Of a stretch of DNA of 64,000 bases, positions 38,200 to 63,106 are shown in pieces. Within the stretch, counting starts at the first letter, position 1, and the number at the start of each line of letters is the position of its first letter. A program made the translations under genes and the position numbers. The stretch comes from Chthoniobacterales bacterium (GTDB taxonomy: Bacteria > Verrucomicrobiota > Verrucomicrobiia > Chthoniobacterales > JACTMZ01), in assembly GCA_018402585.1 (NCBI GenBank), contig JAGYIO010000003.1:204386-268385 (forward strand), given 5' to 3'. The notes beneath the pieces were generated by a model. The model had not been told where the DNA came from, searched no databases, and saw only the letters and a list, made by a program, of their open reading frames with translations.

Positions 38200-38670
38200 G
38201 GTCGCCTGCGGCGACCTGTCTCCGGCTCGAACTGCGCTCTCATCCCACCGGCAGGTTTCAAGCCGCCTGCGGCGGGCTGGCGGAAGGGGTGGGATTGGTC
38301 GCCTGCGGCGACCTGTCTCCGGCTCGAACTGCGTTCTTCATCCCACCGGCAGGTTTCAAGCCGCCTGCGGCGGGCTGGCGGAAGGGGTGGGATTGGTCGC
38401 CTGCGGCGACCTGTCTCCGGCTCGAACTGCGTTCTTCATCCCACCGGCAGGTTTCAAGCGCGCCTGCGGCGGGCTGGCGGAAGGGGTGGGATTGGTCGCC
38501 TGCGGCGACCTGTCTCCGGCTCGAACTGCGTTCTTCATCCCACCGGCATGTTTCAAGCCGCCTGCGGCGGGCTGGCGGAAGGGGTGGGATTGGTCGCCTG
38601 CGGCGACCTGTCTCCGGCTCGAACTGCGTTCTTCATCCCACCGGCATGTTTCAAGCCGCCTGCGGCGGGC
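38200..38670 (-). repeat. Tandem array of ~98-bp units carrying the 3' end of tRNA-Ser(CGA)
   Basis: Immediately 3' of tRNA-Ser(CGA), four near-identical units follow. Each ends in AATCCCACCCCTTCCGCCA, the last 19 nt of the tRNA including CCA; on the plus strand these 19-mers start at 38278, 38376, 38475 and 38573, with the tRNA's own at 38671. The ~79 nt between them contains the hairpins GCCCGCCGCAGGCGGC and GGTCGCCGCAGGCGACC (the second abutting the 19-mer) and GGTGGGAT, which can pair with ATCCCACC of the 19-mer to rebuild a T-stem. The two units next to the tRNA share CATG where the distal two have CAGG. The 38027-38199 stretch shows nothing. Confidence 0.9.
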
Positions 38671-38762
38671 TGGCGGAAGGGGTGGGATTCGAACCCACGG
38701 TGGGCTTAACCCCACGCTCGATTTCGAGTCGAGTGCCTTAAACCGGACTCAGCCACCCTTCC
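38671..38762 (-). tRNA. tRNA-Ser(CGA)
   Basis: A class II tRNA of 92 nt including an encoded CCA. Acceptor GGAAGGG/CCCTTCC, anticodon stem CTCGA/TCGAG with loop CTCGAAA (anticodon CGA, UCG codons), a long variable arm, T-arm GTGGG-TTCGAAT-CCCAC, discriminator G and CCA at 38671-38673. Its 19-nt 3' end is copied in the adjoining array. Confidence 0.95.
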
Positions 38763-42701: not shown

Positions 42702-42774
42702 GGTGAGGTGGCTGAGTGGTCGAAAGCAGAGCTTTGCTAAAACTCCGTAGTCCAAAAGGCTACCGAGGGTTCGA
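42702..42774 (+). pseudogene. Truncated tRNA-Ser(GCT) copy split at the T-loop
   Basis: The first 73 nt match the intact tRNA-Ser(GCT) at 42945 with one change: in the anticodon stem AGCTC became AACTC, giving a C-A mismatch. The match stops exactly after TTCGA of the T-loop. A 62-nt insert (42775-42836) follows and then AATCCC (42837-42842), the next bases of a T-loop and T-stem, but no acceptor 3' strand. The insert opens GCCGAGCGCAGCGAACC and ends AGGCGAAGCC. It cannot make a functional tRNA. The region 42557-42701 holds no gene and 42843-42944 is partly a duplicate of it. Confidence 0.85.
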
Positions 42775-42904
42775 GCCGAGCGCAGCGAACCGGAGGTCGC
42801 AAGACCGGAGATAGCCCCCGGCAAACAGGCGAAGCCAATCCCCTTCGAATTTTTCCACCCGCAGCGTTTCACCCCCGGAAAGGTGGCCGCTGCAGCACGC
42901 GGCA

Positions 42905-42933: not shown

Positions 42934-42944
42934 CCTCGTCGACT

Positions 42945-43032
42945 GGTGAGGTGGCTGAGTGGTCGAAAGCAGAGCTTTGCTAAAGCTCCGTAGTCCAAAA
43001 GGCTACCGAGGGTTCGAATCCCTCCCTCACCG
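42945..43032 (+). tRNA. tRNA-Ser(GCT)
   Basis: An 88-nt class II tRNA. Acceptor GGTGAGG/CCTCACC, anticodon stem GAGCT/AGCTC with loop TTGCTAA (anticodon GCT, AGC/AGU codons), long variable arm, T-arm GAGGG-TTCGAAT-CCCTC, discriminator G at 43032. No CCA follows; instead TTTTT, which may aid termination. Confidence 0.95.
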
Positions 43033-43110
43033 TTTTTCTCGGGATGAAAACGCTCGGGTTTTGAGCCGAGCGCAGCAAGACAGGCGAAGCCAATCCCTCC
43101 CTCACCGCCA
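43033..43110 (+). repeat. Single unit carrying the 3' end of tRNA-Ser(GCT) with CCA
   Basis: After the intact tRNA comes a 59-nt insert (43033-43091) and then AATCCCTCCCTCACCGCCA (43092-43110), a copy of the tRNA's 3' end that, unlike the tRNA itself, includes CCA. The insert has GGGATGAAAACGC, TTTTGAGCCGAGCGCAGC and GACAGGCGAAGCC. The first two resemble the Ser-CGA array unit, and the last two resemble the insert in the truncated copy at 42775-42836. Confidence 0.85.
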
Positions 43111-62429: not shown

Positions 62430-62503
62430 TGCCTCGTGGTGTAACGGTAGCACTGCAGATTCTGGATCTGTGTGTCATGGTTCGAATCCATGCGAGGCAG
62501 CCA
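62430..62503 (+). tRNA. tRNA-Gln(CTG)
   Basis: A 74-nt tRNA with encoded CCA. Acceptor TGCCTCG/CGAGGCA, anticodon stem GCAGA/TCTGT with loop TTCTGGA (anticodon CTG, CAG codons), T-arm CATGG-TTCGAAT-CCATG, discriminator G (62500), CCA 62501-62503. Its 3' end is copied seven times downstream. Confidence 0.95.
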
Positions 62504-63106
62504 TGCGAAGCATGGCGAACTCAAGTCCCCGCCACGCGCAGCAACCCTCGGAAAGGTCGCCCTCGCGACCAATCCATGCGAGGCAGCCATGCGAAGCATG
62601 GCGAACTCAAGTCCCCGCCACGCGCAGCAACCCTCGGAAAGGTCGCCCTCGCGACCAATCCATGCGAGGCAGCCATGCGAAGCATGGCGAACTCAAGTCC
62701 CCGCCACGCGCAGCAACCCTCGGAAAGGTCGCCCTCGCGACCAATCCATGCGAGGCAGCCATGCGAAGCATGGCGAACTCAAGTCCCCGCCACGCGCAGC
62801 CACCCTCGGAAAGGTCGCCCCGGCGACCAATCCATGCGAGGCAGCCATGCGAAGCATGGCGAACTCAAGTCCCCGCCACGCGCAGCCACCCTCGGAAAGG
62901 TCGCCCCGGCGACCAATCCATGCGAGGCAGCCATGCGAAGCATGGCGAACTCAAGTCCCCGCCACGCGCAGCCACCCTCGGAAAGGTCGCCCCGGCGACC
63001 AATCCATGCGAGGCAGCCATGCGAAGCATGGCGAACTCGTGTCTCCGATAAACGAAGTCATCCCCGCAAAGACCGCCACAGGCGATCAATCCATGCGGGG
63101 CAGCCA
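62504..63106 (+). repeat. Tandem array of 86-bp units carrying the 3' end of tRNA-Gln
   Basis: Copies of AATCCATGCGAGGCAGCCA, the 19-nt 3' end of tRNA-Gln with CCA, start at 62571, 62657, 62743, 62829, 62915 and 63001, exactly 86 bp apart, plus a degenerate one (one A to G change) at 63088. The 67-nt spacers are nearly identical, with hairpin GCCATGCGAAGCATGGC across the CCA and a second hairpin GGTCGC..GCGACC touching AATCC. GCATGG in the spacer can pair with CCATGC of the next copy. The three units next to the tRNA share CAGCAACC and GGTCGCCCTCGCGACC; the next three share CAGCCACC and GGTCGCCCCGGCGACC. The last unit has decayed. The spurious open frame across the array is not a gene. 63107-63208 shows nothing. 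Confidence 0.92.

Follow-up and report, generated by a model that had tools for sequence, protein, structure and literature searches.

Tandem units inserted at the T loop of tRNA genes in a Chthoniobacterales genome: very probably a divergent form of the RtT repeats of E. coli

Introduction

What kind of element is a row of short units behind a tRNA gene, each ending in a copy of that gene's own 3' end, and how does such a row grow? The question is raised by the tRNA-Gln(CTG) locus of a Chthoniobacterales bacterium, which lies in a stretch of 64,000 nucleotides (GenBank assembly GCA_018402585.1, contig JAGYIO010000003.1, positions 204,386 to 268,385; hereafter the window) from a genome of 2.46 Mb in 35 contigs of up to 532 kb (G000 in comparisons). 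Repeats behind a tRNA gene have a precedent in the RtT repeats at tyrT of E. coli, which have been known for decades and for which we know of no accepted function.

Results

The array behind tRNA-Gln(CTG)

The locus is composed as follows (all on the + strand).
62430..62503, +: tRNA-Gln(CTG) with T loop TTCGAATCC and encoded 3' CCA (ARAGORN; Rfam RF00005, 58.9 bits)
62485..62570, +: unit 1, 86 bp, block 1 (CAAC), consisting of the tRNA from A58 to its end, hairpin 1, spacer and hairpin 2
62500-62516, +: hairpin 1 of unit 1
62555-62570, +: hairpin 2 of unit 1
62571..62656, +: unit 2, same sequence as unit 1
62657..62742, +: unit 3, same sequence as unit 1
62743..62828, +: unit 4, block 2 (CCAC; hairpin 2 loop CCCG)
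62829..62914, +: unit 5, same sequence as unit 4
62915..63000, +: unit 6, same sequence as unit 4
63001..63087, +: unit 7, 87 bp, of a divergent and older subtype (GAACTCGTGTCT...ACGAAGTC), most similar to a unit of sister genome G007
63088..63106, +: last copy of the 3' end of tRNA-Gln (AATCCATGCGGGGCAGCC)

A sequence-only reading of this locus had described two blocks of three units and a deviating outer one, which proves accurate: copies of the tRNA 3' end start at 62571, 62657, 62743, 62829, 62915 and 63001, each 86 bp apart, and at 63088 after 87 bp, giving six 86-bp units and one of 87 bp. The array reaches a TRF score of 1045 with 99% matches and is therefore not a product of chance. 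The spacers of the two blocks are 96% identical, and unit alignment bears out the linked changes by which the blocks had been told apart, i.e., CAAC versus CCAC and two loop bases of hairpin 2 (CCTC versus CCCG) above an unchanged 6-bp stem; unit 7 shares 73% to 76% identity with units 1 to 6. That stems are kept while loop bases change is also supported by covariation among nine distinct units from five species, in which hairpins 1 and 2 show 96.7% of cells paired and nine two-sided changes, with a covariation score that none of 500 shuffles reached. The same reading had proposed that GCATGG in the spacer pairs with CCATGC of the next tRNA-end copy and rebuilds a T stem with an enlarged loop. 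This holds weakly for the Gln array, where the pairing is possible but not conserved (sister genomes read GGATGG, one mismatch), and turns out to be the defining feature of the wider family described below. The degraded remains of a further tRNA-Gln 3' end, together with hairpin 1, lie 2.7 kb past the array and outside the window (locus L037, G000:C23:270250-270307).

Units occur at seven tRNA genes and always start at A58

Two further arrays in the window had been passed over, as had the link to the RtT repeats of E. coli.
38671..38762, -: tRNA-Ser(CGA), arranged like the Gln locus
38200..38689, -: array behind tRNA-Ser(CGA), 98/99-bp units with RtT-like core GGTGGGATGAAGAACGCAGTTCGAGCC
42944..43033, +: tRNA-Ser(GCT), intact
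43017..43107, +: one 75-bp unit behind tRNA-Ser(GCT) and a terminal 3'-end copy
42702..42844, +: disrupted copy of tRNA-Ser(GCT), its T loop directly interrupted by unit sequence (GGGTTCGA|GCCGAGCGC...GAAGCC|AATCCCC)

Across the tRNA genes of this genome, about 42 distinct tRNAs, a scan finds units at seven, namely all four tRNA-Ser, Tyr, Ala-TGC and Gln-CTG. Their numbers are 7 at Gln-CTG, 4 plus a partial one at Ser-CGA, 2 at Tyr, 1 each at Ser-GCT and Ala-TGC, 1 clean unit plus a second, longer one at Ser-TGA, and 1 plus a degenerate one at Ser-GGA. At all seven tRNAs the first base of every unit is A58 of the tRNA, in the T loop. Units bounded in this way are found in this genome at 7 of the 13 tRNAs that have TTCGAATCC as T loop compared to 0 of the 29 others, an association that remains significant even when a gene-bearing duplication at Pro-GGG is counted (Fisher p=4e-4). 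Gln-TTG of this genome, with T loop TTCGAGTCC, has no units. Similarly, tRNA-Asn carries units in G004, G005, and G007, where its T loop is TTCGAATCC, and none in G000 and G002, where it is TTCAAATCC; in sister genome G003, tRNA-Asn has the T loop TTCGAATCC yet no unit.

Other duplications of tRNA 3' ends are present in the same genome. Two are att-like and mark candidate integrated elements, one at tRNA-Arg(ACG) (45 nt, 3532 bp away; L239) and one at tRNA-Leu(GAG) (20 nt, 3147 bp away; L267). A third, a 34-nt copy of the tRNA-Pro(GGG) 3' end 918 bp downstream on the reverse strand of contig C12 (L251), encloses two small genes, one of them for a DUF6036 nucleotidyltransferase, and is immediately preceded by a GGTCGCCGCGGCGAC hairpin.

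We also considered GIY-YIG endonucleases as drivers of the units. Such a gene starts about 10 bases past the unit-free tRNA-Asn of G000 (L234 146-403), and another is enclosed by a 313-bp duplication of the 3' part of tRNA-Lys(TTT) in G007 (L186), but neither has a tie to RtT-type units and the candidate was rejected.

Unit anatomy and the inverted T arm

Units at Ser, Tyr, Asn, Ala-CGC, Pro, Thr, Gly, Arg and His tRNAs share one order of parts: the tRNA 3' half is followed by a hairpin (a terminator in some Akkermansiaceae), an inverted cognate T arm, GAACGNNGTTC, further hairpins, and finally an A with the next 3' half. Throughout the arrays, units follow one another in tandem between copies of the tRNA 3' end that start at A58, which is the mark of RtT-type repeats in the broad sense. 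Most related units contain a conserved GGATGAGAAC core, near-identical at nine tRNA isotypes across Verrucomicrobiota, and the Gln array units are without it. Most also hold an inverted copy of the T arm of their own tRNA (46 units; the observed sum was reached by 0 of 20,000 permutations). The cognate match averages 7.4 contiguous bases, with up to 15, versus 4.5 for non-cognate tRNAs, and it is this excess that constitutes the signal since the GAT portion of cognate matches was preselected by the core-finding motif. Cognate complementarity is seen in Ser, Tyr, Asn and Ala units. The inverted arm is 91% to 98% identical beside the loop and 0% identical exactly at A58 and G57, opposite which nearly all units read GA. 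The one mismatch therefore faces the site of insertion, which is what a three-way junction would show. In some Akkermansiaceae units (L106, L119, L120) the insert that separates core and tRNA end is internally duplicated and so contains the CCGGAGGAGG hairpin module a second time.

The Gln spacer reads GCATGGCGAACTC and not the GGATGAGAAC..GTTCGAG core. Its units have another end module, GGAAAGRTCGCC-loop-GGCGAYC-AATCC, in common with those of Ala-TGC, one Tyr and some Asn loci; the genus has 18 occurrences of the pattern GGAAAGRTYGCC..AATCC and 0 of a control pattern, and all inspected loci are tRNA arrays. Both unit types are found together in the Ser-TGA array of G007, with an Asn-type 3' end between them. 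The presence of both types in one array connects the Gln array with this kind of element, and the Asn-type end shows that sequence has been exchanged between tRNA arrays.

Relation to RtT and other known systems

The Gln array has no Rfam match and fails to match the Rfam RtT model (RF00391) even at E 10, below its cut-off of 45 bits; we therefore file it as a divergent variant of the RtT kind and not as a member of RF00391. Other units come closer to the same cut-off without reaching it: the Ser-GGA unit of this genome scores 37.0 bits over the full length (E 1.5e-5 per genome) and a Terrimicrobiaceae unit (L132) 37.9 bits over the full model, with 16.8 bits for the Ser-CGA locus in the window. 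In E. coli as here, tandem units stand behind a tRNA and each ends in the tRNA 3' end from A58. Shared features further include a GGATGAGAA..GGTTCGAG core, a helix complementary to the cognate tRNA (GGGGAAGGAT/ATCCTTCCCC in tRNA-Tyr), GNA hairpins and variable copy number. The E. coli units differ in measuring 178 bp at tRNA-Tyr, where ours are mostly 74 to 108 bp, and the repeats described here occupy seven tRNAs within a single genome and, across the phylum, nine isotypes. We consider it very probable that the Gln array is an RtT-type repeat.

Of 5426 complete E. coli genomes, 4712 have RtT repeats, at 1 to 14 places each (median 3). Members of the RtT RNA family have been described in Pasteurellaceae (PMC4986893), and the same paper cites E. 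coli RtT RNA as being released from tRNA transcripts. An RtT sRNA is expressed in Thioalkalivibrio and upregulated at 10 C (PMC8092127), and in Salmonella Paratyphi A rtT forms a 175-bp VNTR (PMC2658671).

Similar architecture may be hidden under another name. The model of "Proteobacterial sRNA sX4" (RF02223) covers tRNA-Ser and the following UUGGGGGGUGAGA, a sequence that resembles the opening of an RtT-like unit; the model scores 24 to 43 bits at the Ser loci here (cut-off 70) and differs in being filed as an sRNA and not as a repeat. Like REP/BIME elements, the units are short, intergenic and rich in hairpins, but they are restricted to tRNA 3' ends and not dispersed. A dispersed REP-like element was dismissed, with the core of this genome found at tRNAs only and the Gln end module, in the loci inspected, in tRNA arrays only. 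In integron arrays, the newest unit lies nearest the anchor, and the sites fold as a single strand with inverted halves paired and bulged bases. Our arrays would resemble attC sites in the position of the newest unit and in inverted halves that pair with bulged bases, which is a structural resemblance and not membership: here no integrase or attI was found, the units contain no genes and the anchor is a tRNA T loop.

Distribution, copy number and direction of growth

Most of the genus has the core, as do 9 of the 388 genomes sampled from the phylum, so that its distribution is patchy, and the named relatives with core are mostly Verrucomicrobiota MAGs. Matches outside the genus lie at Ala, His, Arg, Ser and Tyr tRNAs, save a few without tRNA context. 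Four matches to the core pattern in Mesorhizobium and a few others, all without tRNA context, look like chance coding matches and were discarded.

Comparison of sister species shows that copy number at Gln is variable, ranging from 0 to 7 units. Compared to the 7 units here, G002 has 2 and a partial one, G006 has 1 and a partial one, G007 has 2, G009 has 1, G004 has 1 degenerate unit and G001 a remnant, with none in G003, G008 and G010. The CAAC state of the proximal block is absent from all sister species compared, and the outermost unit is closest to a unit of G007 (80% identity). With the proximal block derived and the outermost subtype shared with G007, the comparison supports the suggestion of the sequence-only reading that the array grows at the tRNA side, while the outermost unit, which had been taken for decayed, is better read as an older subtype. 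In G003, a Ser-GGA-type unit stands without an intact tRNA ahead, and its flanks keep part of the T stem (L083 1470-1590, reoriented); no empty site for this unit was found.

Strand and molecule

Hairpin loops in the units are strikingly biased. GNA triloops account for 88 of 140 triloop hairpins, where shuffles give 2.0 and the remainder of the window gives 20 of 322, and their complement TNC occurs once in the units, which identifies the sense strand as the well-folding one. This strand is also the RNA strand, and folding programs do not separate the DNA from the RNA reading: the predicted RNA fold of the unit beats shuffles (z -2.2), and a DNA fold does so about equally well (z -2.4), with ViennaRNA energies being unable to tell GNA loops apart. 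DNA mini-hairpins closed by GNA loops are extraordinarily stable (PMC4686876). The GNRA and UUCG loops typical of RNA are nearly absent from the units (GNRA in 1 of 39 tetraloops), and mismatches in the cognate helix comprise 4 G-T versus 33 others. Of 49 representative arrays, five to six, all of them from Akkermansiaceae, have a terminator ahead of the core. A promoter-like site lies upstream of the Gln array, with no terminator. The GNA loops, the scarcity of G-T pairs and the terminators ahead of the core indirectly favour folded single-stranded DNA, and we suggest that the folded sense strand matters and does so more likely as DNA than as RNA. DNA as its working form is nevertheless a tentative assignment, somewhat short of an even chance.

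Discussion

The explanation that we favour overall, by a modest measure of confidence, is a divergent RtT-type repeat of the T loop that forms recombinational arrays and acts through its folded sense strand. Geneless, hairpin-rich units are inserted at A58 in the T loop of tRNA genes with TTCGAATCC, as the sequences show, and since every unit brings along its own tRNA 3' half the tRNA stays intact. Units would spread from one tRNA array to another, and recombination between 3'-end copies would alter their number, with the newest units adjoining the tRNA in line with the comparison of sister species; a recombinational origin of the array dynamics seems probable to us. Within the usual unit, as sequence and statistics show, the inverted cognate T arm pairs with the T-arm halves that flank the insert, and one strand forms a three-way junction at the T-loop position with the conserved unpaired GA and the GNA-loop hairpins; in the Gln subtype this arrangement is reduced or missing. 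The substrate of a recombination or replication step might be the folded sense strand, with single-stranded DNA more likely than RNA. Neither a recombinase nor a mobile vector came to light, with no match in IMG/VR or phages, and plasmid matches were to non-mobilizable records, several of them chromosome-sized; carriage by phages, viral contigs or plasmids was set aside as unconvincing.

The strongest competitor, though a doubtful one, is that the units are functional RNAs, with read-through of the tRNA and processing releasing RtT-like mimics of minihelices that would act as sRNAs in amino-acid stress. The E. coli precedent as cited in PMC4986893, the cold-induced RtT sRNA of Thioalkalivibrio (PMC8092127), the covarying stems and the promoter-like site without terminator at the window array all fit this idea. 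It is harder to reconcile with a strong intrinsic terminator between tRNA and core in the Thr and Pro arrays of Akkermansiaceae, with the dominance of GNA over the nearly absent GNRA and UUCG loops, and with the paucity of G-U in the cognate helix. Passive tandem duplication, i.e., slippage and unequal crossing over with quasipalindrome correction of the arms and neither function nor mobility, would readily produce blocks of identical units, variable copy number, concerted evolution and arms with perfect Watson-Crick pairing. We regard it as improbable because independent local duplications cannot yield the same core at nine isotypes and in E. coli, and the conserved GA at 57/58, the T-loop specificity and the GNA loops also speak against it.

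Number and order of identical units could further be an artefact of assembly, given that identical 86-bp units exceed short-read resolution and near-identical 86-mers are prone to mis-assembly, but this is very improbable for contigs reaching 532 kb when sister genomes independently have 1 to 2 units at the same tRNA and complete E. coli genomes behave alike. We give slightly less credence still to ordinary att remnants of tRNA-targeting integrases from phages or islands. Downstream repeats of a tRNA 3' end are the usual att signature, and att-like duplications do exist in this genome at Arg-ACG, Leu-GAG and Pro-GGG; yet the left boundaries of these differ and genes have space between the copies, whereas our units always start at A58, are tandem and geneless and mostly carry the RtT core, and no phage or viral contig holds them. 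No integrase gene lies between the 3'-end copies, and a length of 86 bp does not accommodate a gene. With boundaries and gene content this different, the att reading was dropped.

If the favoured reading of a divergent T-loop repeat holds, one might go further and place RtT, sX4 and the Verrucomicrobiota arrays in one ancient tRNA-T-loop family of geneless, integron-like cassettes that would multiply and travel as folded single-stranded DNA and be anchored at TTCGAATCC, a speculative step that we consider rather unlikely as it stands. The RtT kind itself is far more widespread than thought. Finding its architecture at many isotypes in another phylum turns a curiosity of one locus into a general phenomenon of tRNA genes with testable rules, namely a cognate-specific inverted T arm, a fixed boundary in the T loop and GNA loops, and it may explain part of the variable-number repeats at bacterial tRNA genes.
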